This document shows, piece after piece, positions 27,856 to 44,763 of a stretch of DNA of 64,000 nt. The notes beneath the pieces were generated by a model that made no database searches, was not told the origin of the DNA, and was given only the letters and a program-made list of their open reading frames with translations. This DNA comes from Proluteimonas flavola (GTDB lineage: Bacteria > Pseudomonadota > Gammaproteobacteria > Xanthomonadales > Xanthomonadaceae). Position 1 is the stretch's first letter; the number at the start of each line of letters is the position of its first letter. A program made the translations under genes and the position numbers. The stretch covers positions 62,001-126,000 of the forward strand of contig NZ_JAIWPU010000012.1 in NCBI RefSeq assembly GCF_021191705.1, read 5' to 3'.

Positions 27856-28452
27856 GGAAAACCCCCGGAGCAGGAAAAAGGATGTCGCTTGCATACCGCT
27901 GCGTGCCGTTCGGATTCCCCCGCTCCCGAAGCCCGCGCGGAGCGCGGATCACGGGAGCCACTCGCCCCTTTGCCGGTGAAATCCGATGGATGACGCTTCG
28001 ATGACTTGCAGTCTCCGCGCCGCGGACCGGCCGGGTCTTGCATCGATTGCCCCGAGACGATGCGGAAATTCGCATGATCGGGACGGGCGCCCGCTTCGCC
28101 CGCCGGGAAACGAGATCCTCGTGCCCGCATCGCCGGTTCCGCGAAAGCCGGACGCCGCGTCCGGTGGCGGTTCGGAAATCCGCGGGATCCAGTTTCGCCC
28201 GGGATATGAAGAATCCTGCGCCGGACCATGGAAATTTGCGGGTAATGCGGAGTCCGCCGGAGTTTCCGAGTGCGTCCGCGCGAACGTCCCGGCATCGGAT
28301 CGCTTCGACGTGTTCTGGACTCTCCGCCGGACTCGCGCGATGATCGACTGCGTGCGATTGCAGCACCGGACCATCCCATTTTTGGCCGGAATTCCCGAAA
28401 TAGGATGCGCAAATCGGCACAAACGAGAATCACGTCCTTCCAGGAGCCGACC
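27856..28452. other. 597-nt divergent promoter region
   Basis: Separates the receptor/GH127 operon (minus) from the alpha/beta hydrolase gene (plus). Codon-like structure is absent. It holds a palindrome at 28059-28078 and two weaker look-alikes near 28230 (ATGGAAATTTGCG) and 28408 (GATGCGCAAAT). No RNA gene was recognised. Confidence 0.6.
28059..28078. promoter_or_regulatory. ATGCG-N6-CGCAT palindrome, possible operator
   Basis: GATGCGGAAATTCGCATGAT contains a perfect ATGCG/CGCAT inverted repeat with a 6-nt centre. It matches 17 of 20 positions with the sequence at 43936-43955 before the PAS-AraC regulator gene. It may be a shared regulator site; chance cannot be ruled out. Confidence 0.4.
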
Positions 28453-29935: not shown

Positions 29936-29945
29936 GGTGACGAAA

Positions 29946-30299: not shown

Positions 30300-30367
30300 C
30301 GTAGGAGCGCCCCATGGGCGCGATAGGCGACTCGCAAGGCCCATCGCGCCCAGGGGGCGCGCCTACG
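30300..30367. repeat. REP-like palindrome overlapping a gene end
   Basis: Arms CGTAGGAGCGCCCCATGGGC... and ...GGGGGCGCGCCTACG form a long imperfect hairpin with the core GGGCGCGAT/ATCGCGCC. The right arm includes the stop codon of the minus-strand NTF2-like gene. It resembles the GTGGGAGCGCGC elements at 48855-49045 and is read as a REP-type extragenic element, doubling as a bidirectional terminator between higA and the peptidase operon. Confidence 0.7.
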
Positions 30368-30863
30368 GCCGGCAGTCGGAGGCCAGCAGGCGGTCGCCGG
30401 GGTCCGGTGTCGCCACCGACGACACGTGATTGAGCGCGATCACCCAGCGTCCGTCGACCTTGCGCATCAGCCGCGTGTTGATGCCGTACTGCGGCTCGGA
30501 TTCGCGCGCCAGGTGGTAGCGGCTGACCAGTTGCGCCGCGTCGTCGGCCAGGCGCTCGATGCGCAGGTCGTAGAAGCACAGCGTGCCGCGCGTGCCCGGC
30601 GCGCTACCGTAGTCGGCGACGTAATGGTCGAGCGTGCCCTGCCAGTCGCGCTGGAAGCGGCCGCGCGACACGAAGGTCACGCCCGGATTCATGAAACCGG
30701 CCATGTAGCCGCGGAAATCGCCGCGGTTCCAGGCCGCCTGCATGTCGGCGACGACGCTGCGGATCGCATGGTCCTCGGCTGGCCAGCCCGACGCGTCGGC
30801 GGTCCCGGCCGCTGCCAGCGCGGCGGCCAGGATCGATCCGGCGATGCGGCAGCGATGCGTCAT
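30363..30863 (-). CDS. Exported NTF2-like (SnoaL/DUF4440-type) protein
   Basis: 166-aa protein with a signal peptide (residues 1 to about 24, AGSILAAALAAAGTADA) and an NTF2-like cone fold: AIRSVVADMQAAWNRGD at the start of the domain, FMNPGVTFVSRG, then the strand FYDLRIERLADDAAQLVSRYHL and the closing WVIALNHVSS. Such proteins bind small ligands or act as accessory subunits; catalytic residues cannot be assigned. Its ATG overlaps the DUF885 stop (ATGA). It is the last gene of the peptide/hydroxyproline operon. Confidence 0.82.
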   Translation of the reverse strand: MTHRCRIAGSILAAALAAAGTADASGWPAEDHAIRSVVADMQAAWNRGDFRGYMAGFMNPGVTFVSRGRFQRDWQGTLDHYVADYGSAPGTRGTLCFYDLRIERLADDAAQLVSRYHLARESEPQYGINTRLMRKVDGRWVIALNHVSSVATPDPGDRLLASDCRP

Positions 30864-32668
30864 CGTCCTGCCGCCTGCGCGGCCTTCTGTTCGGCGATGA
30901 ACGTGCGGATTTCCTCTTCCAGCACCGGCAGCGGCACCGAGCCCAGGTTCAGCAGGGTGTCGTGGAACGGGCGCTGGTCGAAGCCGGCGCCCAGTTCGCG
31001 CTCCGCTTCCGCGCGCAGGTCGAGGATGGTCTTGTAGCCGATGTAGTAGGCCAGGGCCTGGCCCGGCCAGGCGATGTAGCGGTCGACCTCGTTGACGATG
31101 TCCTGGTGCGCCAGCGCGGTGTGGCTGGCGAGATAGTCGATCGCCTGCTGGCGGCTCCAGCCGTACTCGTGCAGGCCGGTGTCGATGACCAGCCGCGCGG
31201 CGCGCCACATCTCGAAGGTCAGCCGGCCGAAGTCCTCGTACGGCGTCTCGTAGATGCCCATCCGCGTGCCGAGCCATTCGGTGTACAAGCCCCAGCCTTC
31301 GCCGTAGCCGGAGAAGTAGGCCTGCTGGCGGAAGTCCGGGCGTGCCGGTGCTTCGAGCGCGAGCGCGGCCTGCAGGCTGTGGCCCGGCGCGCACTCGTGC
31401 GCCACCAGCGCCGGGAGGTTGTACAGCGGCCGCGACGGCAGGTCGTAGGTATTGAACAGGCACGATTCCAGCCCGCCGCGGCCGGAGGTGTAGATGGGTG
31501 CGACATCGTCGGGCACCGGCAGGATCGTGAAGCGGTAGCGCGGCAGGACACCGAGCGTGTGCCTGAGTTCGCCGTCGATCTTCTTGGCGATCCACGCGGT
31601 GTGCGCCAGCAGCTCGTGCGGCGTCTTCGCGTAGAACTGCGGATCGGTACGCAGGAAGGTCAGGAATTCCTCGAACGTGCCCTCGAAGCCGGCGCGCACC
31701 ATCACCTCGCGCATCTCCGCGGCGATGCGCTCGACCTCGGCCAGGCCCAGGTCGTGGATCTCGCGCGCGCTCATGTCGCGGGTCACGTACTCGCGGATCT
31801 GGGTCCGGTAGAACGCGCGACCGTCCGGCAGGTCGCTGGCCGCGGTGGTCGTGCGCGCGCGCGGCAGGTACTGCTCGCGCATGAACGCCAGCAGCCCGGT
31901 GTAGGCCGGCACCGCCTGTTCCAGCACCACGCGCCGGCCTTCCTCGCGCAATTGCGTGCGCACCGGTTCGGGGATCGAGGCCGGAATGCGATCGAAGGTG
32001 GCCAGGAACGGATTGCCTTCATCGGTCAGCGTGTACGGGGCGATCGTGGCGTCGCGTCCTTCGACCGACGATCTCGGCACGCTCCACCCGCGCGCCAGGC
32101 CCCGCGTCATGTTGGCGATGTGCTCGTCGAAGTAGCGCGGCACGTCGGAGAGCCGGCCGATGAAGCGGCGCCAGTCGGCCTCGGTCTGATAGGGCTGGCG
32201 CGGATTCAGTCCACCCCAGAAGAAGGTGTCGCTGTTGAACGGCGCCTCGTAGGTGCGCCAGTGCGCGTTGTTGTGCAGGGCTTCGACCGAGGTGCGGAAC
32301 ACCGCGGCATTGACCCGCTCCTCGCGGCCGAGCTCGGCGACGGGAATCGCGTCCAGTGCCGCGAGGGTGCGCTTCCAGTAGTCCGCGCGCCGTTCCCAGG
32401 CCTGGGCCGTCACCGACGGAAACCGGTCGCCGGCCTGCCAGCGGCCGTCGATCTTCTCGCGGACGTATTCGCGCTGCCGCCAGTCCCATTCCCCGGTGTA
32501 GAGCGCGCGGAGTTTCGCCTCGGTGGCGTTCGCAGGCGCGGCCAGCGGCGCCGGCGTCTCCTCCGCCAGCGCAGGCGACACGGCGCCGAGTGCAAGCGAC
32601 AGCGACAGAGCGAGGACGGAGCAGGTCGGACGGAGCATCGAGCGGAAACGGCGGCGTGCGTCTGGCAT
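30860..32668 (-). CDS. DUF885 family exported hydrolase, copy 1
   Basis: 602-aa secreted protein. The signal peptide contains LALSLSLALGAVSPALA. The DUF885 core carries a zinc-peptidase-like H424-E-C-A-P-G-H430 motif and the conserved YGEGWGLYTEWLG block. DUF885 members are predicted metallopeptidases, and its place after an S9 peptidase supports peptide breakdown; the reaction is not proven. AGGAG lies 7 nt before the ATG. It is 28 nt downstream of the S9 peptidase gene. A closely similar copy lies at 45788-47584 on the same strand. Confidence 0.9.
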   Translation of the reverse strand: MPDARRRFRSMLRPTCSVLALSLSLALGAVSPALAEETPAPLAAPANATEAKLRALYTGEWDWRQREYVREKIDGRWQAGDRFPSVTAQAWERRADYWKRTLAALDAIPVAELGREERVNAAVFRTSVEALHNNAHWRTYEAPFNSDTFFWGGLNPRQPYQTEADWRRFIGRLSDVPRYFDEHIANMTRGLARGWSVPRSSVEGRDATIAPYTLTDEGNPFLATFDRIPASIPEPVRTQLREEGRRVVLEQAVPAYTGLLAFMREQYLPRARTTTAASDLPDGRAFYRTQIREYVTRDMSAREIHDLGLAEVERIAAEMREVMVRAGFEGTFEEFLTFLRTDPQFYAKTPHELLAHTAWIAKKIDGELRHTLGVLPRYRFTILPVPDDVAPIYTSGRGGLESCLFNTYDLPSRPLYNLPALVAHECAPGHSLQAALALEAPARPDFRQQAYFSGYGEGWGLYTEWLGTRMGIYETPYEDFGRLTFEMWRAARLVIDTGLHEYGWSRQQAIDYLASHTALAHQDIVNEVDRYIAWPGQALAYYIGYKTILDLRAEAERELGAGFDQRPFHDTLLNLGSVPLPVLEEEIRTFIAEQKAAQAAGR

Positions 32669-32696
32669 CAGGAATCTCCTGCGGTGCGGGTGCGGA

Positions 32697-35024
32697 TCAC
32701 TGGGCGGCGCCTGCCATCCCGTTCCAGCGCGGGGGTGCCGCGCCGAGCAGGTGGCGGACGAAGAAGTCGGACTGGCGGCGGTGCGCATAGGCGATCGGCC
32801 CGTCCGAGCGGCCGACCGAATGCCCGCCGCCGGGAATGGCGAGCAGCTCGAAATCCTTGCCGGCGCGGACCAGGGCATCGGCCACCTGCATCGTCGACGC
32901 CGGATCGACGTTGCTGTCCTGCTCGCCGAGGATCAGCAGCAGTTCGCCCTGCAACCGGTGGGCGTTGTCCACGCCCGAGGCGCGCGCGTAATGGTCGTCT
33001 TCGCCGTCACCCTCACTCTTGGGCAGGCCCATCCACTGCTCGTTCCAGCTGATCTTGTCCATGCGGTTGTCGTAGCAGCCGTTCCAGGCCACGCCGACCT
33101 TGTAGAAGTCCGGGTGGAACAGCAGCGCGCCGAGCGTGCTCTGGCCGCCGGCCGAGGCACCGTAGATGCCGACCCGCGAGATGTCGTAGGACGGGTCGCG
33201 CGCGGCCAGCGCGCGGTGCCAGGCGATGCGGTCGGGGAAGCCGGAATCGCCGAGGTTCTTCCAGGCCACGTCGTGGAAGGCCTTGCCGCGGTGCGCGGTG
33301 CCCATGCCGTCGATCTGCACGACGATGAAGCCCAGGTCCGCCAGCGCCTGCATGCCGATCTGCTTGTCGCCGCCGCTGTGGTAGCCGAACGGCCAGAAGG
33401 TCTTGGGCACGAAGGCGTCGTGCGGGCCGGCGTAGATGTTCTCGATCACCGGGTAGCGCTTGCCCGGATCGAAGTCGCGCGGACGCACGACCAGGCCCCA
33501 GATGTCGGTGACGCCGTCGCGGCCCTCGGCGACGAACGGCTCGGGCGCGCGCCAGCCGGCCGCCTGCAGCGCCGAGATGTCGCCGCGCTCGATCTCGGCG
33601 AGCAGCGTGCCGTCGGCGCGGCGAAGCTCCATGACCGGCGGCAGGTCCACGCGCGAGTAGACATCGACGTAGTGCGCGCCTTCGGGCGCGATCGCGATGT
33701 CGTGGTCGGCGTCGAAATCGGTCAGGCGCACGAGGTTGCCGCCATCGAAGTCCACCCGGAACAGATGCCGGAAATACGGATCGCGCCCGGCATCCATGCC
33801 GCTGGCGGTGAACCAGACCTGGCGCGCGGCATCGTCGACGCGCAGCACCTCGCGCACCACCCAATCGCCCTGCGTGATCCGGTGCTTCACCTGTCCGCTG
33901 CGCCCGTCGAACAGGTACAGGTGCCGCCAGCCGTCGCGCTCGGATAGCCAGACGATCTCCTCGCCCAGGCCACCGACGTCGTGGCGGAAGCCGCGCCAGG
34001 TGTCGACGAAGGTCGTGCCCGGCTCGGCCACCGCGATCCGCGCGGTCGCCGCCTCGCCCTCGCCGGGCACGTCCACCGCGACCAGGTCCACGCGCTGGTG
34101 GCCGCGGTGGACGACTTCGAACGCGAAGCTGCCGCTGCCCTGCCGCCACTGGATCGGCGACAGGCGGTACGGGTTGGCGAACAGCGCGGCGTCGATCTCG
34201 AAGCCGCGACCGCGTTCGACGTCGAACAGCAGCGGCCGTTCGATATCCACCGCATCGCCCGGCTTGGGATAGAGCTGGGTGTGCACGCGCGGCTGCAGCC
34301 GGTCGCGCGGCGCGGTCTCCATCCGCACCACTTCGCGGCGGTCGCCCGGCAGCACGCGGTAGACCGCCAGCCAGCGCGAGTCCGGCGACCAGGCCAGGGT
34401 TTCGGGATCGTCGAAGTCCGCCGCGTGACCGCCCTCGCCGCGCAGCATCACGCGACCGTCGGCGACCCGGCGCACGACTACGTTGTGGTCCTCGACCGAT
34501 GCCGCGAAGCGCCCGTCGGGCGACGGCCGCGGGGTATCGTCCGCCGGCACCGACAGGTCGCGGACCACGCCGAACGCGCGCGGGCGCCCGGGTGCCGGCG
34601 CCGCGCGTTCGCAGTCCGCCGGCGCTAGCGTGCAGCGCCAGCGGGTCTCTCCGACATGGAACGCGATGGCGCGGTCCTCGTCCTCGAACGCGAACGTCTC
34701 GAACGGCAGCCGCAGCGGATCGTGGCGCATACCGTCCGCCTGCCCGAGCGCCGCGGCGATCGCGGCCTGGTCGAAGGCCGGCCGCCCGCGCCCGCCGGCC
34801 GGGTCGTCGCGCACGAAGGCGAAGCCGCCGGCGACGGTCTTGCGGTAGTGGAAGCGCCCGTCGGGCGACCATTGCGCCGGCCAGGCCACGTCGCGGGTCA
34901 GGCCGATCCAGTCCTCGCGCAGCGACAGCGCGCGCGCGTAGTCGGCGGCATCGGGCGCGGCCGACGCGGGCATCGCCGCCAGCAGCGCCAGCCACAGCAG
35001 CAGCCTGCCGACCCGTCCCGTCAT
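32697..35024 (-). CDS. Exported S9 (dipeptidyl-peptidase IV-like) serine peptidase
   Basis: 775-aa peptidase with signal peptide (RLLLWLALLAAMPASA), an N-terminal beta-propeller region (repeats such as PAQWSPDGRF, LAWSPDSRWLAVY) and a C-terminal alpha/beta hydrolase domain. The triad is visible: S624 in GASAGG, D703 in GEQDSNVD and H735 in GGGHSVG. Prolyl S9 enzymes release dipeptides from Pro-containing peptides, fitting a locus that degrades hydroxyproline. The start was placed at MTGRVG because an earlier Met lacks a signal sequence. 31 nt after the permease gene. Confidence 0.93.
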   Translation of the reverse strand: MTGRVGRLLLWLALLAAMPASAAPDAADYARALSLREDWIGLTRDVAWPAQWSPDGRFHYRKTVAGGFAFVRDDPAGGRGRPAFDQAAIAAALGQADGMRHDPLRLPFETFAFEDEDRAIAFHVGETRWRCTLAPADCERAAPAPGRPRAFGVVRDLSVPADDTPRPSPDGRFAASVEDHNVVVRRVADGRVMLRGEGGHAADFDDPETLAWSPDSRWLAVYRVLPGDRREVVRMETAPRDRLQPRVHTQLYPKPGDAVDIERPLLFDVERGRGFEIDAALFANPYRLSPIQWRQGSGSFAFEVVHRGHQRVDLVAVDVPGEGEAATARIAVAEPGTTFVDTWRGFRHDVGGLGEEIVWLSERDGWRHLYLFDGRSGQVKHRITQGDWVVREVLRVDDAARQVWFTASGMDAGRDPYFRHLFRVDFDGGNLVRLTDFDADHDIAIAPEGAHYVDVYSRVDLPPVMELRRADGTLLAEIERGDISALQAAGWRAPEPFVAEGRDGVTDIWGLVVRPRDFDPGKRYPVIENIYAGPHDAFVPKTFWPFGYHSGGDKQIGMQALADLGFIVVQIDGMGTAHRGKAFHDVAWKNLGDSGFPDRIAWHRALAARDPSYDISRVGIYGASAGGQSTLGALLFHPDFYKVGVAWNGCYDNRMDKISWNEQWMGLPKSEGDGEDDHYARASGVDNAHRLQGELLLILGEQDSNVDPASTMQVADALVRAGKDFELLAIPGGGHSVGRSDGPIAYAHRRQSDFFVRHLLGAAPPRWNGMAGAAQ

Positions 35025-35055
35025 GCCTGCATGCCCGTCATCCGGCCCGTAGCGC

Positions 35056-36462
35056 TCACGCGTCCCGTCCCTCCAGCCGGCTGTGGCGGATGCCATAGGC
35101 GAAATACACCACGCAGCCCACCGCCATCCACAGCAGGAAGCGCTCGTAGGTCACGAACGGCAGCCCGTAGATCAGCCAGGCCGAGAAGCCGATGCCGAGC
35201 AGCGGCACGAACGGCACCCACGGGGTGCGGAACGGGCGATGCAGCTCCGGCTGGCGCACGCGCAGCACCAGGATCGCGCTGCAGATCACGATGAACGCGC
35301 TGAGCACGCCGATGTTGACCAGCATCGCCAGTTCGTCGAGCGGCAGCAGGCCGGCGGCGATCGCGGTGACGAGGCCGATCAGCACCGTGGTGCGGAACGG
35401 CGTGCCGAACTTCGGATGCACTGCCGAGAACCACTTCGGCAGCAGGCCGTCGCGCGACAGCGCGAACCAGATCCGCGCGCCGGCCAGCAGGTTGGCGAAG
35501 ATCACGCTGGTGATGCCGCAGATCGACGCCAGCGAGATCGCGATCATCACCTTCGGCTGCCCGATCGCGGTGAACGCGTGCGCGACCGGCGCGTCGTTGT
35601 CGAGCGTGGTGTAGGGCACGATGCCGGTCAGCACCAGGCAGATGCCCACGTACAGCGCCATCGCGATGCTCAGCGACAGCACCACCGCGCGCGGTACATC
35701 GCGCTGCGGGTCCACCGCCTCCTCGGCGGCGGTGGTCATCATCTCGTAGCCGAACACGGCGAAGAACACGATCGCCGCGCCGGTCACCACGCCCTCGAAG
35801 CCGAACGGCATGAACGGCGTCCAGTTGCCCGGGTCGATGTAGGCCACGCCGGCCGCGATGATCAGGATCGCGGCGCCGATCTTCAGCGCGACGATGACGT
35901 TGTTGAAGCGTGCGCCCCACTCCATCCGCACCGCGAGCAGCGCTGCGATCAACAAGGTGATCACGACCGCGGGCAGATTGACCATGTGCCCGTCCCCGGT
36001 CCCGGGCCCGCCGCGCGCCCATACCGGCAGCGGCCATCCCATCGCATCCAGCAGCGCCTGCACGTAGCCCGACCAGCCCACCGCCACCACCGCCGCGATC
36101 AGCGAGAACTCCAGCAGCAGGTCCCAGCCGATCAGCCAGCCGGCGAACTCGCCGAGCACCGCATAGCCATAGACGTAGGCGCTGCCGCTGACCGGGATCA
36201 GCCCGGCGAACTCGGCATAGCACAGCGCCGCGGCCGCGCTGGCCATGCCGGCGAGCATGAACGACAGCACCACCGCCGGCCCGGCGTGGTTGGCCGCAAC
36301 CGTGCCGGTCAGCACGAAGATGCCCACGCCGATGATGCCGCCCAGGCCGATCGCGGTCAGGTGCCACAGGCCCAGTACGCGGCGCAGGCCACTGCGCGAT
36401 CGCGCCTCGGCCTGCAGCATTTCCACGGATTTCCTGCGTATCAGTCGCTCAACGATGCTCAT
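35056..36462 (-). CDS. APC-family amino acid permease
   Basis: 468-aa inner-membrane transporter with about 12 membrane helices. The first-helix signature IGLGGIIGVGIFVLTG and the helix with FFAVFGYEMMTTAAEEAVDPQRDVPRAV are characteristic of cationic/neutral amino-acid APC permeases. Start at MSIVERL with a GAGAG element upstream. Located between the M24 peptidase and the S9 peptidase, it probably imports hydroxyproline, proline or small peptide products (substrate inferred from context only). Confidence 0.93.
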   Translation of the reverse strand: MSIVERLIRRKSVEMLQAEARSRSGLRRVLGLWHLTAIGLGGIIGVGIFVLTGTVAANHAGPAVVLSFMLAGMASAAAALCYAEFAGLIPVSGSAYVYGYAVLGEFAGWLIGWDLLLEFSLIAAVVAVGWSGYVQALLDAMGWPLPVWARGGPGTGDGHMVNLPAVVITLLIAALLAVRMEWGARFNNVIVALKIGAAILIIAAGVAYIDPGNWTPFMPFGFEGVVTGAAIVFFAVFGYEMMTTAAEEAVDPQRDVPRAVVLSLSIAMALYVGICLVLTGIVPYTTLDNDAPVAHAFTAIGQPKVMIAISLASICGITSVIFANLLAGARIWFALSRDGLLPKWFSAVHPKFGTPFRTTVLIGLVTAIAAGLLPLDELAMLVNIGVLSAFIVICSAILVLRVRQPELHRPFRTPWVPFVPLLGIGFSAWLIYGLPFVTYERFLLWMAVGCVVYFAYGIRHSRLEGRDA

Positions 36463-36577
36463 CGGGTGGCTCTCTGGCGGGCCGGTCGGCGACCGGCGAT
36501 GGCGGGAACACCGTGCGCCCCTCCTGGCCGCGCGGAATGCAGTGGGGATTTGGAACGTCAATGCGTCGGCGAGGTCC

Positions 36578-37780
36578 TCACGCGAACGGCCGGTCGATCG
36601 CCGGCGACGGCGGCGTGAACCAGCGCGCGCCGTCGTCGGTCACGTGGAAGTGATCCTCGAGGCGAACGCCGAAGCGACCCGGCACCACGATCATCGGTTC
36701 GTCGCTGGCGCACATGCCCGGCGCCAGCGGCGTGCGGTCGCCACGCACGAGATACGGCGCCTCGTGGATCGCCAGTCCGCAGCCGTGGCCGGTGCGGTGC
36801 GGCAGTCCGGGCAGGCGGTAGCCGGGACCGAGGCCGGCCGCTTCCAGCACGCGGCGCGCGGCCGCGTCGACATCCTCGCAGGCCACGCCCGGGCGCACCG
36901 CGGCGAACGCGGCCGCCTGCGCGGCCTGCTCCAGGTCCCAGATATGGCGCGCCGCATCGCCGGCGCGGCCGAAGCTCCAGGTCCGGGTGATGTCGGAGTG
37001 GTAGCCCTGCACCGTGCAGCCGGTGTCGATCAGCACCAGGTCGCCCTCGCGCAGCCGTTGCACGCCGGGAATGCCGTGCGGATACGCGGTCGCGTGGCCG
37101 AACTGGACCATGCAGAAGGTCGACCCGTCGTCGGCGCCGAGCGCGCGGTGGGCCTCGTCGATGAAGCGGACGAGCGTGTCGGTGCCGATGCCCTCTTCGG
37201 CGATGCCGGCGGCCAGCCGCTGCACCAGCAGGGTCATGTCGCAGGCCTGCTGGATCAGCGCCAGCTCGGCCGGCGATTTGGCGCTGCGGCAGGCGTCGAC
37301 GATCGGCGCGGCATCGACGATGGCGCGCGCGTCCAGGTGCGCGCGCAGCCCGGTGTGCACCGCGAACGCCGCGCCCGGGTCCAGCGCCAGCGTGCGTGCG
37401 CCGCGCTCGGCCATGGCCTGGGCGACCCGCGCATGCGGATCCTCGTGTTCCTCCCACAGCCGCTTGGCCGCGGGAATCCCCAGCACCGCATCGAGCGAGC
37501 CTTCCTCGAACGCGGGACACACCAGCAGCGGATCGCCCGCGCCGGTCAGCAGCAGCGCGACCAGCCGCTCGCTGGCGCGCCACGGTACCCCGGCGAAATA
37601 GCGCAGCGACGGTCCGGCGCCGACCAGCAGCGCGTCCACGTTCTGCGCGCGCATCAGCGCGCGGGCGCGTTCGATGCGCTGCTGGTACTCCGCCCCGGCG
37701 ATCGCCGGCGCGCACTGCGTCCACGGCCGCAATTGCGCCCGCGCCTCGGCCAGGCCCAGGTGGCCGATCTGCGTGCTCAT
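36578..37780 (-). CDS. M24 family aminopeptidase (Xaa-Pro type)
   Basis: 400-aa cytoplasmic metallopeptidase with creatinase-like N-terminal domain and pita-bread C-terminal domain. Metal ligands are all present in order: Asp in LIDTGC, Asp in HSDITRTW, His in HGCGLAIHEAPY, Glu in SDEPMIV and Glu in RLEDHFHV. Prolidase-like M24 enzymes cleave bonds next to proline or hydroxyproline, so it would release imino acids for the pathway upstream. The ATG overlaps the aldehyde dehydrogenase stop (ATGA). Confidence 0.92.
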   Translation of the reverse strand: MSTQIGHLGLAEARAQLRPWTQCAPAIAGAEYQQRIERARALMRAQNVDALLVGAGPSLRYFAGVPWRASERLVALLLTGAGDPLLVCPAFEEGSLDAVLGIPAAKRLWEEHEDPHARVAQAMAERGARTLALDPGAAFAVHTGLRAHLDARAIVDAAPIVDACRSAKSPAELALIQQACDMTLLVQRLAAGIAEEGIGTDTLVRFIDEAHRALGADDGSTFCMVQFGHATAYPHGIPGVQRLREGDLVLIDTGCTVQGYHSDITRTWSFGRAGDAARHIWDLEQAAQAAAFAAVRPGVACEDVDAAARRVLEAAGLGPGYRLPGLPHRTGHGCGLAIHEAPYLVRGDRTPLAPGMCASDEPMIVVPGRFGVRLEDHFHVTDDGARWFTPPSPAIDRPFA

Positions 37781-39372
37781 GTGCCCGCGCCCACGTCGTC
37801 GGTGCGCCACTGCCCGTCGACCAGGCGCCAGACGCCGCCCGGATTGCGGTCGCGCAGCACGTCCGGCAGCAGCGCGTCGGGCACGTTGTCGTAGCTGTGC
37901 AGCGCGGCGAAGCGGCGGATCGCACCGGGCATGCCGACCGAGGTGAAGCCCGGATGGCTCGTCGCCGGATACGGCCCGCCGTGGTTCTGCGCCGGACTGA
38001 CCGCCACACCGGTCGGCATCCGGTCCACGATCAGCCGGCCCACGCGCGGGCGCAGCAGCGGGATCAGCGCCGCGGCCTGGGCATCGTCGCGACCGTCGCC
38101 GGCGCGGTACAGCGTCGCGGTCAGGTTGCCTTCGAACGCGCGTGCGATCGCCTGCGTCTGCGCGGCGTCGTCGCTGCGCACGACCAGGCTGGCCGGGCCG
38201 AAGGCTTCGCCCTGCAGACGCTGCGGGTCGGCGAGAAAACGTTCGCCGTCGACCGACAACAGACTGGGCTGCACCCACCAGCCCGAGCGGTCCGGATCCG
38301 CCGCGCCCGCCACCCGTTCGGCGCCCGCCGCCAGCAGCGCATCGAGCGCATCGCCCAGGTGCCGCCTGCCGTCGTCGGAGAACAGCGCCTGCGCCGGCGC
38401 GGCATCGAACCGCGCCGCGGCCGCGGCGACGAAGGCATCGCCGGCCTCGCTGCGCGGCACCACCAGCACGCCCGGATTGGTACAGAACTGCCCGCTGCCC
38501 ATCGTGCACGAGGCGAAGAATTCCTGCGCCAGCGCCGCGCCGCGCTCGGCCAGCGCGCCGTCGAGCAGGAACACCGGATTGATGCTCGACATCTCGGCGT
38601 AGAACGGCACGCCGGCCGCGTCGGCCAGGGCCTTGAGCGCCAGCCCGCCGGCGCGGCTGCCGGTGAAGCCGACCCCGCCGATCGCGGCGTTGCCGACCAG
38701 CAGCGGCGTCGCGGACGGTTCGACGTGGTACAGCAACTGGATCGCCCCGGCCGGCAGGCCGGCCGCCAGCAGCGCGGCATGCGCGATCCGCCCCAGCGCC
38801 TGGCTGGTGCCCGGATGCAGCGGATGCACCTTGGCGATCACCGGGTTGCGCGCGGCGATCGCCGAGGCGAAATCGCTGCCGGCGATGGCGTTGAACGCGA
38901 ACGGGAAATTGTTCGGACCGAACACGACGACCGGCTTGCCGAGCGGGCCGAATGTCGCGCGCAACCCGGTGGCGGTATCGACCACCGGATGCGCCCAGCT
39001 CCAGTCGCGCACCGCGCGCGCGGCCTGGCGCAGCTGGCCGGTGGTGCGCGGCAGTTCGACATCGCGCAGCCGCGGCGATGCCGGCAGTCCGGTTTCGGCA
39101 TGCGCCAGCGCCACCAGCGCCTCGGCCCCTGCTTCGATGCCGTCGGCGTAGCCGTCGAGGAAGGCGGCGATGCGCGCGGGATCGGCGGCGGAGAACGCCT
39201 CCGCCACCGCGGTCGCCGCGGCCACCGCCGCCTCGACCTCGCCGTGGCCGCTGACCGGGAACGCGCCGCCGATCGCCTCGCCGCTGGACGGGTCGCGCGC
39301 GCGGAATTCCCCGGCCGGCGCGACCGCGTCGCGCCAGCCGCCGGCGACCAGGACCTGCTGCAGCCCGGCCAT
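37777..39372 (-). CDS. 2-oxoglutarate semialdehyde (2,5-dioxopentanoate) dehydrogenase
   Basis: 531-aa aldehyde dehydrogenase of the larger, NADP-type class that oxidises alpha-ketoglutaric semialdehyde to 2-oxoglutarate, the last step of hydroxyproline breakdown. It has the cofactor region FGPNNFPFAFN, glycine motif GFTGSRAGG, general-base Glu in YAEMSSINP and catalytic Cys in GSGQFCTNPG. The assignment to this substrate rests on length, motif style and the adjoining deaminase gene, whose product is its substrate; only 2 nt separate them. Confidence 0.93.
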   Translation of the reverse strand: MAGLQQVLVAGGWRDAVAPAGEFRARDPSSGEAIGGAFPVSGHGEVEAAVAAATAVAEAFSAADPARIAAFLDGYADGIEAGAEALVALAHAETGLPASPRLRDVELPRTTGQLRQAARAVRDWSWAHPVVDTATGLRATFGPLGKPVVVFGPNNFPFAFNAIAGSDFASAIAARNPVIAKVHPLHPGTSQALGRIAHAALLAAGLPAGAIQLLYHVEPSATPLLVGNAAIGGVGFTGSRAGGLALKALADAAGVPFYAEMSSINPVFLLDGALAERGAALAQEFFASCTMGSGQFCTNPGVLVVPRSEAGDAFVAAAAARFDAAPAQALFSDDGRRHLGDALDALLAAGAERVAGAADPDRSGWWVQPSLLSVDGERFLADPQRLQGEAFGPASLVVRSDDAAQTQAIARAFEGNLTATLYRAGDGRDDAQAAALIPLLRPRVGRLIVDRMPTGVAVSPAQNHGGPYPATSHPGFTSVGMPGAIRRFAALHSYDNVPDALLPDVLRDRNPGGVWRLVDGQWRTDDVGAGT

Positions 39373-39374
39373 CG

Positions 39375-40277
39375 TCACAGTCCCGGGTGGGTCTTGATCG
39401 CGTGCGCGATGACCTGCAGGGCCTCGTCGCGTTCGGCGCCTTCGACCACCAGGCGCGGCGCGCGTACACGCTCGTTGCCCCAGCCGACGGCCTGCTGGGT
39501 CAGCTTGATGAGCTGCACGAACTTCGGCACGGTGTCGAGCCGCAGCAGCGGCAGGAACCAGTCGTAGAGTTCCTTCACCGCCTCGTAGCCACCGGCGCGC
39601 GCGCGTTCGAACAGCGCCACCGACTCGTGCGGATAGGCGTTGACCTGGCCGGCGATCCAGCCGGTCGCGCCCATCGCGATGCCTTCGACGATCGCATCGT
39701 CGATGCCGGTCATCAGCACCAGGCGGTCGCCCGACAGCGCCTGGATCGAGGCGAAGCGGCGCAGGTCGCCCGAGGATTCCTTGACCGCCTCGATCTGCGG
39801 GAACTCGTTGGCGAGATCGACGATCTGCTCGGCGGTGAAATCGGTCTTGTAGGCGATCGGATTGTTGTACAGCAGCACCGGCAGTCCGGTCGCGGCCACG
39901 ACCGCGCGCACGTGCTCGCCCATCTCGCGGCGGTCGGTGGAGTACGCGTACGGCGGCAACACCATCAGCCCGCGCGCGCCCTCGGCCTCGCAGGCCTGCG
40001 CCAGTCGCACCGCCTCGTCGGTCGCCAGCGCGGCGATGCCGGGAATGACCGGCGCGCGGTCGCCCACGGCCTCGACCAGGGTACGCACGATCGCGACCTT
40101 CTCCTCGAACGACAGCGTCGCGCTCTCGCCGAGCGACCCGATCGGCACGATGCCGATGCAGCCCGCGTCGATCTGCCAGGCCGCATGCCTGGCGAGGAAA
40201 TCGTGATCGACCTGTCCGTCCTCGGTGAAGGGGGTGGTGATCGCGGGGATGACGCCCTGCCACATCGACTTGCTCAT
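39375..40277 (-). CDS. 1-pyrroline-4-hydroxy-2-carboxylate deaminase (DapA family)
   Basis: 300-aa class I aldolase-fold enzyme with Schiff-base Lys166 (IEAVKESSGD) and Tyr137 (LLYNNP). DapA-family members inside hydroxyproline operons deaminate and dehydrate Delta1-pyrroline-4-hydroxy-2-carboxylate to 2-oxoglutarate semialdehyde. The neighbouring dehydrogenase subunits and epimerase make that more likely than dihydrodipicolinate synthesis. AGGAG lies 7 nt before the ATG. It starts 1 nt after the stop of the preceding subunit gene. Confidence 0.92.
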   Translation of the reverse strand: MSKSMWQGVIPAITTPFTEDGQVDHDFLARHAAWQIDAGCIGIVPIGSLGESATLSFEEKVAIVRTLVEAVGDRAPVIPGIAALATDEAVRLAQACEAEGARGLMVLPPYAYSTDRREMGEHVRAVVAATGLPVLLYNNPIAYKTDFTAEQIVDLANEFPQIEAVKESSGDLRRFASIQALSGDRLVLMTGIDDAIVEGIAMGATGWIAGQVNAYPHESVALFERARAGGYEAVKELYDWFLPLLRLDTVPKFVQLIKLTQQAVGWGNERVRAPRLVVEGAERDEALQVIAHAIKTHPGL

Positions 40278-40278
40278 T

Positions 40279-41577
40279 TCATGACTCCTGGGGATGGATC
40301 CGCGGGGCGTCGTCGAAGCACGACAGCACGTCCAGCGAAACGGGGAAAATCGGGACACGGAAACCGGTGCGGGCGACGCCGCGGATCTCCGCCAGCGCGG
40401 TGCCGCAGATGCGCCCCTGGCAGGGGCCCATGCCGAACCGCGTCATCAATTTGGTCTCGCGCGCGCCGTCGCAGCCGGCCAGTGCGTCGAGACGGACGTC
40501 CTCGCAGCGGCAGATGAGGGTCGAACCGTCGGCCAGTGCGCGGATGTCGTCATGCAATGCGAAGGTCTTGCGCAGCGCCGCCGCGAAGCGCCGGGCACGG
40601 GCCCGTCGCGACAGCAGCGCACGCGCGGCCCGTGCCTGGCCGACCGCGGCATGGCCGGCGATCCCACCTTCGATGCGGGCGCAGTCCACGCCGCCGATGC
40701 CGCAGGCCTCGCCGGCCGCGTACACGTGGGCGATGCTGCTTCGCTGCACGTCGTCGACGATGACGCGCGGATGCGGCGTGCCGTCGTCGAGCGCGCACCC
40801 CAGCGACAGCGCGAGTTCGACGTTGGGCACCAGACCGAAACCACAGCCGAGCATGTCGCACTCGAGTTCGATGCTGCGGCCGCCGACCCGCAGCTCGACC
40901 GCGCGCAGCCGGTCGTCGCCGATCGCGCGCAACACGTGGCTGCCGGTGCGGTAGGGCACCGCGGCCAGCGACGCGCGCAGTTGCAGCGCCTGCGCCAGCT
41001 TGCCCGGCCAGCGCCACAGCCCGGCCGCGAATCCGGCGACCGCGGGTAGCGCGGCCTGTTCGTGGATGCCGAGCACGTCCGCGCCATGCCGGCGCAGCGT
41101 CGCCGCCGCCGCCAGCAGCAGCGGCCCGCTGCCGGCCAGCACGACGCGCTGCCCGCGCACCGGCCAGCCCTGCTTGGCCAGCGCCTGCGCACCGCCGGCA
41201 CCGGTCACGCCCGGCAGCGTCCAGCCCGGGAACGGCAGCAGCAGTTCGCGCGCGCCGGTCGCCAGCACCAGCGCCTCGTGATCGATGGTCGCGCCGTCAT
41301 TGCCGATGCGGACGAACAGCCGGCGACCCGCGCTGCCGACGACTTCCGACTGCGGCAGCAGCGTGACGCCGGCGGCCGCCAGCGCCGCCTGCAGCGTCGA
41401 TGACGGCGGCGGCGCGCCGTCGCGCACGTCGTGGCGCCAGATCTGGCCGCCGGGCTGCGGCTGCGCGTCGACCACGATCACGCTCGCGCCATGCGAGGCG
41501 GCCGCCTGCGCGGCCGACATCCCGGCGGGACCGGCGCCGACCACGACGACATCGCAGCGCAGCCGACGCTCAGACAT
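40279..41577 (-). CDS. D-hydroxyproline dehydrogenase, FAD/[2Fe-2S] large subunit
   Basis: 432-aa NAD(P)/FAD-type oxidoreductase (GAGPAGMSAAQAA at residues 14-26, PGGQIW) with a C-terminal Bfd/SoxA-like iron-sulfur region (CRCEDVRLDAL...GPCQGRIC). It matches the LhpE-type subunit of heteromeric D-hydroxyproline dehydrogenases and the larger subunits of opine and cyanide-forming dehydrogenases. It oxidises cis-4-hydroxy-D-proline together with the two following proteins encoded upstream. Its start overlaps the ferredoxin-like subunit stop by 8 nt, so they are co-translated. Confidence 0.9.
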   Translation of the reverse strand: MSERRLRCDVVVVGAGPAGMSAAQAAASHGASVIVVDAQPQPGGQIWRHDVRDGAPPPSSTLQAALAAAGVTLLPQSEVVGSAGRRLFVRIGNDGATIDHEALVLATGARELLLPFPGWTLPGVTGAGGAQALAKQGWPVRGQRVVLAGSGPLLLAAAATLRRHGADVLGIHEQAALPAVAGFAAGLWRWPGKLAQALQLRASLAAVPYRTGSHVLRAIGDDRLRAVELRVGGRSIELECDMLGCGFGLVPNVELALSLGCALDDGTPHPRVIVDDVQRSSIAHVYAAGEACGIGGVDCARIEGGIAGHAAVGQARAARALLSRRARARRFAAALRKTFALHDDIRALADGSTLICRCEDVRLDALAGCDGARETKLMTRFGMGPCQGRICGTALAEIRGVARTGFRVPIFPVSLDVLSCFDDAPRIHPQES

Positions 41578-41833
41578 GCGTGCGCACCTCCATGCCCTCG
41601 GCCGCCGGCACCAGGCAGGCGCGCTGCTGCGCGCGCCCGTCGACCGTCACCCGGCATTCGAAACAGATGCCCATGCCGCACAGCGGCGCGCGCGGCTCGC
41701 CGCCGCGCGAGGTGCGCGTGGTGCCGCCGGCCAGCGCGACCGCCCCGGCCACGCTGCTGCCGGCCAGCACCGCGATCTCGTGGCCGTCGACGCGCAGCCG
41801 CAGCATCGGACGCGCATCGGCATGGCCGCTCAT
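41570..41833 (-). CDS. D-hydroxyproline dehydrogenase, small [2Fe-2S] subunit
   Basis: 87-aa ferredoxin-like protein with four cysteines in the pattern CGMGICFEC...C (plant-type [2Fe-2S]). It corresponds to the small iron-sulfur subunit (LhpF/SoxA-N type) that shuttles electrons between the FAD proteins of the complex. It overlaps both neighbours: ATGA at its start and 8 nt at its end. Small size is normal for this subunit. Confidence 0.9.
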   Translation of the reverse strand: MSGHADARPMLRLRVDGHEIAVLAGSSVAGAVALAGGTTRTSRGGEPRAPLCGMGICFECRVTVDGRAQQRACLVPAAEGMEVRTHV

Positions 41834-42930
41834 GCGAGCACCCGCGCGGGATCGTAGGGCGTGGGATCGATGGCCGGCACCCGCCCATGGATGAGGTCCA
41901 GCAACAGCTGCGCCGTGCCCGGCGCCGTGGTGACGCCGAGACCCTCGTGCCCGGTCGCCACCCACACCCCGGGCCGGCCCGGCACCGCGCCGATGTAGGG
42001 CTGCCCGTCCGGCGTGCAGGGCCGGAACCCGGTCCAGACCCGGATCGCCTGCAGGCCGCGCAGCGCCGGCAGATAGTCGAACGCGCGCTCGAGCATCCGC
42101 CGCAGCACCGGCGGATGGACGTCGCGTGCGGTCTCGCCCAGTTCGCGCGACGAACCCACCAGCAGCTGTCCGCCCGGACGCGGCTGGACGTTGAACGCGA
42201 CGCTGGTGGACGCATCGCCGTGCGCGCTCGCCGCGTAGCCGAGTTCCAGCACCTGGTGCCGCAGCACGCCCGGGTGCCGATCGGTGATCGCCAGATGGCC
42301 GCGTCGCACGTGCATCGGCAGTTCCGGCACCAGCACCGGCGTCGCCTCGCCGGTGGCCAGCAGGACCGGGCCGTGCAGCGTGCTGCCATCGTCGAGGCGC
42401 ATGCCGTCGCGCAGCAACGCCATCGCGCGCCGGCCGCGCAGCAGCGTCGCGCCTGCGGCCACCGCGCGCCCGACCCGCCAGGCGGCGATCCGCGGCGGAT
42501 AGACCACCGCTTCGCGGGCGACCCGCATGCCGCCGGCCAGGCGATGCGCCAGGCCCGGTTCCAGCGCGCGCAGCTGCACGGCGTCGATCGCCTCGGCCTC
42601 GATGCCCACCGCGGCGAGCCGGGCGATCTTCTCCGCGACCATCGCGAGCTCGGTGTCGTCGGCCGCGACCCACAACGTGCCGCAGCGTTGGAATTCGGCC
42701 CCGGGCTGGTGCTCGACGGCGTCCCACAACAGCTGCGAATAGCGCGCGAGCGCCAGTTCCGCCGGATCGTCGTCCATCGCCACCAGGTGTCCCATCGATG
42801 CGGCGGTGGCGCCGCCGCCGATCACGTCGGCCTCGACGATCGCCACCCGCATTCCCGCCGCCGCGGCCAGGTCGGCGCAGTTCGCGCCGACGATGCCCGC
42901 ACCCACGACGATGAGGTCGTAACCGGTCAT
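41830..42930 (-). CDS. D-hydroxyproline dehydrogenase, DadA/DAAO-like FAD subunit
   Basis: 366-aa FAD-dependent oxidoreductase with Rossmann motif VVGAGIVGANCA, a glycine-rich GGGATAASMGH segment near the flavin, and the C-terminal block ATGHEGLGVTTAPGTAQLL typical of D-amino-acid/glycine oxidases. It is the likely catalytic subunit acting on cis-4-hydroxy-D-proline (LhpB type), giving 1-pyrroline-4-hydroxy-2-carboxylate. The start overlaps the epimerase stop (ATGA). An alternative name would be D-amino acid dehydrogenase. Confidence 0.9.
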   Translation of the reverse strand: MTGYDLIVVGAGIVGANCADLAAAAGMRVAIVEADVIGGGATAASMGHLVAMDDDPAELALARYSQLLWDAVEHQPGAEFQRCGTLWVAADDTELAMVAEKIARLAAVGIEAEAIDAVQLRALEPGLAHRLAGGMRVAREAVVYPPRIAAWRVGRAVAAGATLLRGRRAMALLRDGMRLDDGSTLHGPVLLATGEATPVLVPELPMHVRRGHLAITDRHPGVLRHQVLELGYAASAHGDASTSVAFNVQPRPGGQLLVGSSRELGETARDVHPPVLRRMLERAFDYLPALRGLQAIRVWTGFRPCTPDGQPYIGAVPGRPGVWVATGHEGLGVTTAPGTAQLLLDLIHGRVPAIDPTPYDPARVLA

Positions 42931-43880
42931 GGCCGCAGCGCGACCCCGCGGATGCCCCAGACGAAGGGATCGTCGGGCTCGAGCAGGATCTCGGCGCTGC
43001 CGGTCAGCCAGGCCTGGCCGGTGATCCGCGGCAGCACGCCGCGATCGCCTTTGCGGTAGGTGCCCTCGAACGCGCTGCCGAGGATGCCCTGCTGCACCCA
43101 GCGCTCGCCCTCGCCCAGCATGCCGTCGGCCGCCAGGCACGCCAGCTTCGCGCTGGTGCCGGTGCCGCAGGGCGAGCGGTCGTAGGCGCCGCCGGGACAC
43201 AGCACGAAGTTGCGCGCCTGCCCGGCGCCGTCCGGCGCCGCGCCGTTGATCTCGATATGGTCGATGACGCCGCCGTCGTCGCCGCCGATCCCGGCCGCGT
43301 CGATCGCGCGCTGGATCGCCTTCGTATACGCGGTCAGCGCCGGCTCGTGCGCGAGCGACAGCGGCACCGGCGACTGGCTGGTGATGAAGAACCAGTTGCC
43401 GCCCCAGGCGACGTCGCCGACGACGGTGCCGTAGTCCGGCACCTCGACCGCGACACCGGTTCGCGCGCGGTGGCTCTCGACGTTGTCGATCGACACCCGG
43501 CCGTCGGCATGCAGTTCGACGCCGACCACGCCGACGGGGGTTTCGATCAGGTGCTCACCCGGAACGATGCGCCCCAGGTGCGCCAGCGTGCGCGTCATCC
43601 CGATCATGCCGTGGCCGCACATGCCCAGGTAGCCGACGTTGTTGAAGAAGATCACCCCGGCCGCGCACGCGGGATCGACCGGCGCCTGCAGCAGCGCGCC
43701 GACCATCGTGTCCGAGCCGCGCGGCTCGCAGGCGATCGCGCTGCGCCATGGGTCGAAGTCTTCGCGGAAGCGTTCGCGGCGCTGCGCGAGGCTGCCGCCG
43801 CCGAGATCGGGAAAGCCGTCGAGCACCACGCGCGTGGGCTCGCCGGCGGTATGGGAATCGATGACGGTCAGACGATGCAT
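42927..43880 (-). CDS. 4-hydroxyproline 2-epimerase
   Basis: 317-aa cofactor-independent epimerase of the proline racemase family. Both catalytic cysteines are present: C88 in MCGHGMIG and C238 in DRSPCGTGTSA. Cys at the second position, rather than Thr, marks true racemase/epimerase members as opposed to 3-hydroxyproline dehydratases. It converts trans-4-hydroxy-L-proline to cis-4-hydroxy-D-proline, the entry step. First gene of a run of seven genes with overlaps or gaps of 1-2 nt. Divergent from the PAS-AraC regulator. Confidence 0.95.
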   Translation of the reverse strand: MHRLTVIDSHTAGEPTRVVLDGFPDLGGGSLAQRRERFREDFDPWRSAIACEPRGSDTMVGALLQAPVDPACAAGVIFFNNVGYLGMCGHGMIGMTRTLAHLGRIVPGEHLIETPVGVVGVELHADGRVSIDNVESHRARTGVAVEVPDYGTVVGDVAWGGNWFFITSQSPVPLSLAHEPALTAYTKAIQRAIDAAGIGGDDGGVIDHIEINGAAPDGAGQARNFVLCPGGAYDRSPCGTGTSAKLACLAADGMLGEGERWVQQGILGSAFEGTYRKGDRGVLPRITGQAWLTGSAEILLEPDDPFVWGIRGVALRP

Positions 43881-43935: not shown

Positions 43936-43963
43936 GATGCGGAAATATGCATAATGATTTCCG
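43936..43963. promoter_or_regulatory. Palindrome in the hydroxyproline operon/regulator divergent promoter
   Basis: CGGAAAT (43940-43946) and ATTTCCG (43957-43963) are perfect inverted repeats around a 10-nt centre, within a 73-nt divergent gap. The overlapping ATGCG-N6-TGCAT version resembles 28059-28078. It covers the proposed ATG of the regulator, so it may be an autoregulatory operator, or the true start of that gene may lie downstream. Confidence 0.5.
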
Positions 43964-44763
43964 GCCGGATTGCCGCATCGCCTTGTTTGCCAGCACGGAA
44001 TCGACGCATCGACGGGGCAAGGACAACGCAACGCAGCACAACGCCGGGAGCCGCCGCCATCGACCTACAGCTTGCGCCGGAAGAAATGCAGTGCCTGTTC
44101 GACGTCCTGCCCGACGTCGTGTTCTTCATCAAGGACCACGAAGGCAGGTACACGCACGTCAACCTGACCCTGGTGCGCCGGCTCGGTGCGAGGACCCGCG
44201 ACGACCTCGTCGGCAAGACGCCCCTGCAGCTGTTCCCGTCCCGGCTCGGCGGCAGCTACATCGCCCAGGACCAGCGCACGCTGGCCGGCGAGATCATCGA
44301 GAACCAGCTCGAGCTGCACCTCTACGCCAATCGCGCACCCGGCTGGTGCCTGACCTTCAAGCGCCCGGTGCGCGACGGCAGGCGCGTGACCGGCCTGGTC
44401 GGCATCTCGCGCGATCTCGGCGCGCCGGACCGGCGCCATTCCTCGTTCGGCCGCCTGCAGCGCGCGGTCGATTACATGCAGGCGCACTACAGCGCGCCGC
44501 TGCGCGTGCAGACGCTGGCCGACAACGCCGAGGTCTCGGTGGCGCAGCTCGAACGGCTGTTCAAGCGGGTCTTCCAGCTGACGCCGCAGCAGATGCTCAG
44601 CAAGCTGCGCATCGAGGAAGCCATGCACCTGCTGCTGCATACCGACACCAGCATCGCCGAGATCGGCCAGGCCTGCGGCTTTTCCGACCAGAGCGCCTTC
44701 GCACGCCAGTTCAAGTCCATCGTCGGCATGCCGCCGCGCGAATACCGTGCGCTGATGCGCTGA
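43954..44763 (+). CDS. PAS-AraC family transcription regulator
   Basis: 269-aa protein: PAS domain (LFDVLPDVVFFIKDHEGRYTHVN, about 48-150) followed by an AraC DNA-binding domain with two helix-turn-helix motifs (SVAQLERLFKRVFQLTP, TSIAEIGQACGFSDQSAFARQFK). It is divergent from the epimerase operon. Hydroxyproline loci of pseudomonads also use an AraC-type activator, so control of this operon is likely. The PAS may sense hydroxyproline or an intermediate (inference). The first about 40 residues are poorly protein-like, so a start further in is possible. It ends 7 nt from the convergent nitrilase gene. Confidence 0.9.
   Translation: MISGRIAASPCLPARNRRIDGARTTQRSTTPGAAAIDLQLAPEEMQCLFDVLPDVVFFIKDHEGRYTHVNLTLVRRLGARTRDDLVGKTPLQLFPSRLGGSYIAQDQRTLAGEIIENQLELHLYANRAPGWCLTFKRPVRDGRRVTGLVGISRDLGAPDRRHSSFGRLQRAVDYMQAHYSAPLRVQTLADNAEVSVAQLERLFKRVFQLTPQQMLSKLRIEEAMHLLLHTDTSIAEIGQACGFSDQSAFARQFKSIVGMPPREYRALMR

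Follow-up and report, generated by a model that had tools for sequence, protein, structure and literature searches.

What does a bacterium gain from a locus that leads from outside peptides through trans-4-hydroxyproline to 2-oxoglutarate, and where would the hydroxyproline come from? This question is raised by a 64,000-nucleotide stretch of the Proluteimonas flavola genome (contig NZ_JAIWPU010000012.1, positions 62,001 to 126,000; hereafter the window, whose own numbering is used throughout), in which genes for hydroxyproline (Hyp) catabolism are followed by genes for peptidases and a permease. A first-pass annotation had read positions 30363-43880 as a catabolon for collagen- or extensin-derived peptides. 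The linked route from peptide to 2-oxoglutarate is borne out by its conservation, whereas the collagen side is not, and we narrow the source to plant glycoproteins because one predicted operator is common to the 4-hydroxyproline 2-epimerase (HypE) gene and to an operon encoding a TonB-dependent receptor (TBDR1) and a GH146-type arabinosidase, and because the Araf-beta-Hyp linkage belongs to plant walls (PMC6085000, PMC10850190). It is probable, judging from gene content and sequence, that the locus forms a regulon by which plant hydroxyproline-rich glycoproteins (HRGPs) of the extensin type are used as food, with hydroxyproline a main prize.

The hydroxyproline genes

Genes of the window were called by codon usage and then named with Pfam; its genome (G000; 4.22 Mb, 103 contigs) was treated as Luteimonas. 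On the minus strand the series begins with HypE (42927..43880; Pro_racemase PF05544, 337 bits), which matches the X. campestris 4HypE structure 4juu in the PDB at 509 bits, carries the cysteine motifs GMCGHG and CGTGTS, and scores 417.6 bits with the NCBIfam 4-hydroxyproline epimerase model, whose curated naming cut-off is 450. Overlapping HypE by 4 bases is the gene of an FAD oxidoreductase (DAO; 41830..42930; PF01266, 203 bits), followed by those of a 2Fe-2S protein (41570..41806; PF13510, 78 bits) and an NAD(P)/FAD oxidoreductase (40279..41577; PF07992, 107 bits), the three being the putative subunits of a cis-4-hydroxy-D-proline oxidase/dehydrogenase. Next come a DHDPS-family pathway deaminase (HypD, 39375..40277; PF00701, 204 bits; its 172.7 bits lie under the dapA cut-off of 206) and a 2-oxoglutarate semialdehyde dehydrogenase (HypH, 37777..39378; Aldedh PF00171, 128 bits). 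All four families of the route from trans-4-hydroxyproline to 2-oxoglutarate are present and adjacent, and by gene content the locus would encode that route in full.

Gene calling and Pfam returned the same gene set and order as the first-pass annotation: after the pathway genes come an M24 peptidase, a permease, an S9 peptidase, a DUF885 protein and an exported DUF4440 protein, all on the minus strand. The first seven genes, HypE through M24, overlap or lie at most 23 bases apart; a gap of 151 bases then separates M24 from the permease, after which the genes are tightly packed again as far as DUF4440. A terminator scan listed none in this gap, and a sigma-70 scan of 30000-48000 found no promoter.

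A predicted operator and its regulator

Divergent from HypE lies the gene of a PAS-AraC regulator (44086..44763, plus strand, with a start that could be 43954; PF12833, 91 bits; PF08448, 69 bits), of which a relative is found in all 71 ortholog loci examined. Of the 72 regions that precede HypE, 71 contain a 19-base motif, TTRTGCNNATTTCCGCATC, located 73-77 bases before the start in 70 and 94 in one; the region that lacks it appears to be that of G008, whose regulator diverges most (44%). In the window, motif and matrix scans place a predicted operator at 43936..43954, 55 bases before HypE, and two more at 28059..28077, upstream of TBDR1, and at 28404..28422, further upstream and also about 70 bases before a divergent hydrolase gene (all three on the minus strand). 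With a matrix built from 28 distinct HypE sites, the window's own included, these sites scored 33.0, 28.7 and 27.7, the next best match in the window reaching 13.2. We presume that the PAS-AraC protein binds this operator, and it probably runs the regulon.

The motif is rare in the genome. The pattern TTNTGCNNATTTCCGCAT, which like the matrix rests on HypE sites only (that of the window among them), has three matches with at most one mismatch in the 4.2 Mb of G000, one before HypE and two before TBDR1, and none when reversed. A second pattern, TYRTGCNNATTTSCGCATC, gave three zero-mismatch matches, which are the HypE site and the two TBDR1 sites, no one-mismatch matches and four with two mismatches, the reversed pattern giving one; since it had been loosened at two letters after the window sites were seen, its three zero-mismatch sites are partly circular. 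Among 297 genomes of the family, a one-mismatch match of TTNTGCNNATTTCCGCAT occurs in 67 of the 72 with HypE and in 24 of the 225 others, and a match of the reversed pattern in 4 of the 297. With up to two mismatches allowed, five Luteimonas genomes (G255, G028, G162, G298, G299) hold sites at HypE and sites placed for the TBDR1-GH146 operon (assigned by distance only in G298 and G299), together with one to four other matches each; the reversed pattern gave none or one.

Scanning 90 loci (1.74 Mb) with the matrix yielded 115 matches scoring at least 18, against a mean of 0.5 and a maximum of 2 for 20 column-permuted matrices. Seventy-two of these lead to HypE, by construction, as they are the training sites. 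Among the 43 others, 24 precede TonB receptors, GH146, a 736-residue gene described below, DUF885 (G255), M24 (G260) or a sugar transporter with a GH127-family gene (G043), and one points at the regulator. We also examined extended loci from 14 of the 45 genomes with GH146, hand-chosen and including the window's own: 12 hold a further site of at least 18 before a receptor, glycosidase or 736-residue gene, and in seven an operator lies before TBDR1-GH146 or GH146. The predicted switch common to Hyp catabolism and to the importer and arabinosidase genes suggests that these bacteria may eat plant cell-wall glycoproteins for their hydroxyproline.

The remaining 18 sites, operator-like and palindromic, follow closely on the 3' end of the regulator gene (16 loci of genus g18, Xanthomonas, as well as G001 and G030), where they fit no target and support neither reading. 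The one at L043:16361 reads TCCTGCCGAATTCGGCATT.

The receptor and arabinosidase operon

TBDR1 (24880..27789, minus strand; PF00593/PF07715) is 79-89% identical to the same-locus receptors of four relatives (G255, G028, G162 and Stenotrophomonas G029), and 82-89% to those of the Luteimonas G255, G028 and G162. Eight bases from it is the gene of a GH146-type beta-L-arabinofuranosidase with a twin-Arg-like N-terminus (22502..24871, minus strand; PF07944, 416 bits). This protein matches 5opj, which we take to be the GH146 enzyme BT0349, at 396 bits, compared with 70 bits for the GH127 structure 4qjy, and its EHCNTLNMLRL and WCCVG segments are aligned. The enzyme thus appears closer to GH146 than to GH127 and to possess the Cys3-Glu zinc site of GH146 (PMC10850190). 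It is 54-56% identical to the Xanthomonas (g18) orthologs, and 48% to a second copy in G175.

In G255, G028 and G162 the order is TonB receptor, a gene of 533-537 residues (an amidohydrolase by Pfam in G255) and arabinosidase; the 533-537-residue gene is also present in Stenotrophomonas G029. The interval between DUF4440 and TBDR1 is occupied in the window by plus-strand genes (28492-30245), namely a HigB-like/HTH pair and an alpha/beta hydrolase gene, the latter without a tblastn match in 77 loci.

The borders of the first-pass annotation, 30363-43880, enclose genes that do belong there, yet the TBDR1-GH146 operon, the regulator gene and a second copy of DUF885 fall outside them. The functional unit likely reaches to 22502-27789 and takes in the regulator gene at about 44086-44763.

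Conservation and linkage

A survey of the 297 genomes gave HypE matches in 79, of which we counted 72 as orthologs (57-100% identity), dropping six at 36-39% identity over the whole protein and G239 with a 67-residue match. With orthologs in 72 of 297 genomes, the hydroxyproline core of the locus is ordinary in this family. Orthologs of M24 (at least 69% identity) are present in 64 genomes, of which 63 also have HypE, and those of S9 (at least 59% identity, among the matches listed) in 47, 46 of them with HypE; 61 M24 genes are on the HypE contig, all within 5.7 kb, and 45 S9 genes, all within 13.1 kb. Matches at up to 63% (M24), up to 51% (S9) and under 48% identity (GH146; about 466 bits or less) were taken as paralogs. 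M24 and S9 are thus close to HypE in every same-contig case (61 and 45), and their linkage to it is more than chance.

The sole exception for both peptidases is G114:C45, in an 85% complete assembly, where M24 lies beside S9 and HypE was not found. At L106, L108 and L109 another proline-racemase-family gene (38-39% identical) has an M24 gene some 2.3 kb away, which shares 62% identity with that of the window.

Orthologs of GH146 (at least 48% identity) were found in 45 genomes, all HypE-positive, that is in 45 of the 72 HypE genomes compared with 0 of the 225 others. Of 47 GH146 places, 40 share a contig with HypE at a distance of 16-43 kb, and seven are on other contigs. HypE is near GH146 also in X. 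hortorum jj2001, Xanthomonas sp. LMG 31884 and X. arboricola CFBP 7645.

These counts bear on an explanation by collagen or gelatin, in which the locus would serve such peptides as the Shewanella HypR regulons do, and the arabinosidase operon would be a separate matter merely under the same regulator. Regulons under HypR that combine secreted collagenases and proline dipeptidases with a TonB transporter have been described (PMC5343134), M24, S9 and DUF885 could serve any Pro/Hyp peptide, and in genus g16 (Lysobacter) 17 of 17 genomes hold HypE without a GH146 ortholog. However, scans of 38 of the 42 proteins called in the window revealed no collagenase family, HypE accompanies every one of the 45 GH146 orthologs, and the operator stands before TBDR1-GH146 or GH146 in half of the extended loci. 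We regard the collagen explanation as improbable.

Neighbours may also be kept by common descent without any shared function, as the relatedness of the genera and the recurrence of the same flanking genes would suggest. In L. suaedae (G255) the locus lies between what we presume to be rsmD and ftsY (Pfam SRP54), the names of the flanking genes coaD, rsmD, ftsY and mutY being mostly our presumption. In G000, however, the relatives of rsmD and ftsY are neighbours on contig C99, less than 0.6 kb apart, and the block from regulator to GH146 is on C88. The block therefore occurs at two places with its order kept, save for single-gene gains and losses (S9, the amidohydrolase, and the hydrolase with the HigB-like insert), and an empty L. 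suaedae site with the block elsewhere is as expected of one unit. Moreover, M24 is on the other side in G260 with a site of its own, and the operator is common to several operons. Common descent without function is thus highly improbable.

Peptidases, permease and DUF4440 protein

The M24 gene (36578..37780, minus strand; Peptidase_M24), whose start overlaps the stop of the aldehyde dehydrogenase gene by 4 bases, encodes a putative Xaa-Pro dipeptidase (prolidase) without a signal-like N-terminus. Its match to the proline dipeptidase structures 5cik/4r60, which we take to be XPD43 of Xanthomonas origin, extends over residues 2-400 (706 bits), a full-length agreement with a known prolidase. The amino-acid permease of the APC family (35056..36426, minus strand; AA_permease_2 PF13520, 183 bits) is only 25-29% identical to the APC genes found downstream in those relatives that have one, which fits repeated recruitment of a transporter.

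The S9 peptidase (32697..35024, minus strand; Peptidase_S9 PF00326 and DPPIV_N PF00930) is related to dipeptidyl peptidase IV (DPP IV) and has a signal-like N-terminus. In an alignment of 19 of the 47 orthologs with the window protein, the triad Ser624, Asp703 and His735 and the oxyanion Tyr531 are invariant in all 20. The window protein has DDPETLAW at the place of DEEMDRHTGYWW of PmDAP IV, and GASAGG replaces GWSNGG. The double-Glu motif of the blade-4 helix was looked for, and no EE was found in 14 printed rows, nor two adjacent conserved Glu in the 20 aligned sequences. In DPP IV this double-Glu contact fixes the substrate N-terminus, and it is called essential for exopeptidase activity (PMC5807507). 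With the triad present and the motif absent, DPP IV was dropped as a functional label; the 'dipeptidyl peptidase' of the first-pass annotation holds as a family name, and dipeptide release is not supported. We predict an oligo- or endopeptidase.

The DUF885 protein (885a; 30860..32668, minus strand; PF05960, 483 bits, over the gathering score) was first called with a start at 32581, 32668 or 32638 being likelier in view of a signal-like N-terminus. In the family alignment HExxPGH is found in 93 of 93 rows and Glu428 and Glu435 are near-invariant, giving the look of a zinc site, and the protein is probably a metallopeptidase. No function name is attached to the relatives of known structure, 3o0y, 3iuk and 3u24, nor do the titles of the twelve DUF885 papers listed name one. 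DUF885 genes lie downstream in many ortholog loci, in several as tandem pairs. The last gene of the group encodes a DUF4440/SnoaL-like protein with a signal-like N-terminus (30363..30863, minus strand; PF14534, 38 bits), whose ortholog adjoins DUF885 in L. suaedae G255.

It is possible that M24, S9 and DUF885 are general peptide scavengers riding on the Hyp operon, a view compatible with the preferred one. Many S9 and DUF885 paralogs exist, S9 lacks the DPP IV motif, and the permease operon of the window has no operator before it, all as such scavengers would have it; the close linkage of the S9 orthologs to HypE described above points the other way. We hold this to be unlikely, if less so than the other alternatives considered here.

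A proposed route

On the preferred explanation, feeding on plant HRGPs, TBDR1 would bring Hyp-arabinosides or glycopeptides across the outer membrane, and the exported GH146 would take the last L-arabinofuranose off Hyp. The exported S9 and DUF885 peptidases may then cleave the Pro/Hyp-rich peptides, the APC permease would import the products, and the cytoplasmic M24 prolidase would split Xaa-Pro and Xaa-Hyp. HypE, the three-gene oxidase, the DHDPS-type deaminase and the aldehyde dehydrogenase would finally convert trans-4-hydroxy-L-proline to 2-oxoglutarate, with the divergent PAS-AraC protein switching the HypE and TBDR1-GH146 operons through their common 19-base site. The genes, their linkage, the common motif and its rarity in the genome are observed directly; the substrates in this organism, the locations of the proteins, the order of steps, the binding of the motif and the expression are what we infer from them.

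Several observations weigh against this explanation. No operator precedes the permease-S9-DUF885-DUF4440 group among the ten window matches scoring at least 5, although its co-expression with the rest is likely. No site of at least 18 precedes receptor, glycosidase or 736-residue genes in G174 and G001, in Xanthomonas the site preceding GH146 itself scores weakly (12.4 in G064), and M24, where transcribed apart, has its own site in G260 with none of at least 18 listed for G212. The motif matches in 24 of the 225 HypE-negative genomes exceed those of the reversed pattern, and the two-mismatch scan is unspecific in Xanthomonas, with 10 matches in G064 and 12 in G302 compared with 3 each for the reversed pattern. 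The 17 Lysobacter genomes lack S9 orthologs as well as GH146, so that the Hyp core is of use also where the sugar arm is absent. The trio of DAO, 2Fe-2S and oxidoreductase genes is absent from 10 of 71 ortholog loci (G012, G015, G062, G106, G190, G212, G229, G241, G260, G279), meaning that the oxidase step varies, and in G012 GH146 is on another contig. Fisher tests on the co-occurrence of GH146 and HypE ignore relatedness, and neighbours in related genomes are not independent. In the Luteimonas stretches read, no called gene was recognised as GH43 or GH121, the partners of GH146 in Xanthomonas, most of these genes being unscanned by Pfam and the rest of the genome unsearched. Finally, that the window GH146 is the ortholog of the Xanthomonas enzyme XCV2724 is inferred from position and from a sole match at 1e-60 in X. 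euvesicatoria ATCC 11633.

Relation to known systems

Extensin is an abundant and resistant plant wall protein, and its serines carry alpha-galactose; in G170 an alpha-galactosidase gene adjoins GH146. In X. euvesicatoria, XCV2724, XCV2728 and XCV2729 strip Ara4-Hyp, and no role in disease was found for them (PMC6085000, Nakamura et al. 2018). XCV2724 is a GH146 enzyme with Araf-beta-Hyp as its main substrate (PMC10850190). The former paper asks why X. euvesicatoria, which is unable to use L-arabinose, has arabinosidases, and suggests that a prolyl oligopeptidase gene adjoining them may act on HRGPs (PMC6085000). The window locus shares GH146 with this set (XeHypBA1, XeHypBA2 and XeHypAA; XCV2724, XCV2729 and XCV2728, respectively), and the Xanthomonas genes stand in one locus with a Hyp cluster; it differs in that GH146 is the only one recognised, with no GH43 or GH121.

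In Xanthomonas G064 a single locus runs from GH146 via GH43 and GH121 to S9 and DUF885. The order in X. hortorum is GH146, TonB-dependent receptor, S9 paralog, GH43, GH121, TonB-dependent receptor, the 736-residue type, an unlabelled gene, a GH35-like gene, S9, a 528-residue gene in the permease position, and DUF885. For GH43 and the GH35-like gene the names were taken over from Pfam results on the G064 stretch, which runs parallel; GH121 is named by gene order and overlap as in PMC6085000, because the Pfam matches there were limited to accessory and weak glycosidase-like domains. The superlocus does not appear whole in X. euvesicatoria ATCC 11633, where HypE and GH146 are on different contigs.

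Arabinose could itself be the prize, with hydroxyproline catabolism disposing of the aglycone. In the G043 locus an MFS_2 sugar transporter gene precedes a second gene of the GH127 family, a site scoring 18.2 lying upstream, and a benefit to Xanthomonas from the released disaccharide has been suggested (PMC7263609). The inability of X. euvesicatoria to use L-arabinose (PMC6085000) argues against it, as does the finding that among the 297 genomes HypE occurs without a GH146 ortholog in 27 and the reverse never; we give this alternative little credence. Taking the amino acid as the prize, the link to Hyp catabolism offers a testable answer to the Xanthomonas arabinosidase puzzle, and it indicates a way in which extensin may be recycled by soil and plant-associated bacteria. 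In the open-licence literature, as represented by titles, abstract openings and passages (some listings in part), no link between arabinosidases and hydroxyproline catabolism appeared.

Other described systems share parts of this arrangement. The Shewanella regulons of HypR, a GntR regulator, co-regulate Hyp to 2-oxoglutarate genes with peptidases and a TonB transporter (PMC5343134); the window differs in that the adjacent regulator is PAS-AraC, not GntR, and has its own motif (HypR was not searched for elsewhere in the genome), and in having an upstream arm with a plant-type arabinosidase instead of collagenases. The 4HypE neighbourhoods of Zhao et al. 2014 (PMC4113996) likewise join HypE with DAAO, DHDPS and aldehyde dehydrogenase genes, and include the X. 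campestris structure 4JUU; in the main text as extracted, peptidases are named once, for another cluster, and 'AraC' and 'extensin' are absent. The Bifidobacterium longum hypBA1-hypBA2-hypAA cluster also removes beta-L-arabinooligosaccharides from HRGPs, but in that organism an ABC system takes up the sugar set free (PMC7263609).

Extended to the Xanthomonadaceae as a whole, the proposal is that PAS-AraC reads plant hydroxyproline or a related cue and drives an undescribed extensin-eating regulon of sugar removal, peptide cutting, uptake and catabolism, in which DUF885 proteins would be Pro/Hyp metallopeptidases, the 730-770-residue family perhaps a new wall-glycoprotein enzyme, and the Xanthomonas arabinosidases would expose hydroxyproline as a carbon and nitrogen source. 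We put the chances of this wider proposal as evenly balanced. Besides a candidate operator and regulator, the link to Hyp catabolism would supply a likely function for DUF885 and for the 730-770-residue family.

Additional genes

Members of the 730-770-residue family, to which the 736-residue gene beside the Xanthomonas GH121 belongs, were seen at L195:12608-14818 and in L196, L199, L200 and L202. They are 66-90% identical to the first of five members (four genera), and a site scoring at least 18 precedes the gene in seven genomes. No Pfam match was obtained for four members, and no PDB match by sequence or profile.

Past the regulator, beside a carbon-nitrogen hydrolase gene, lies the second DUF885 copy (885b; 45788..47584, minus strand), whose membership of the unit is uncertain. 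It is 79% identical to 885a and looks like a recent duplication of it; no operator scoring at least 5 was found upstream.

Further along the window, 47952-52941 encodes an XdhC-like protein and the FAD and molybdopterin subunits of a xanthine dehydrogenase-type enzyme, and the protein of 49137-49787 among them has the look of its 2Fe-2S subunit. At the other end, 1551-18098 holds genes for a MoxR-type ATPase, VWA and DUF58 proteins and a TPR protein, presumably a Bat-like set, with an M16 peptidase gene (14068-16812) among them.

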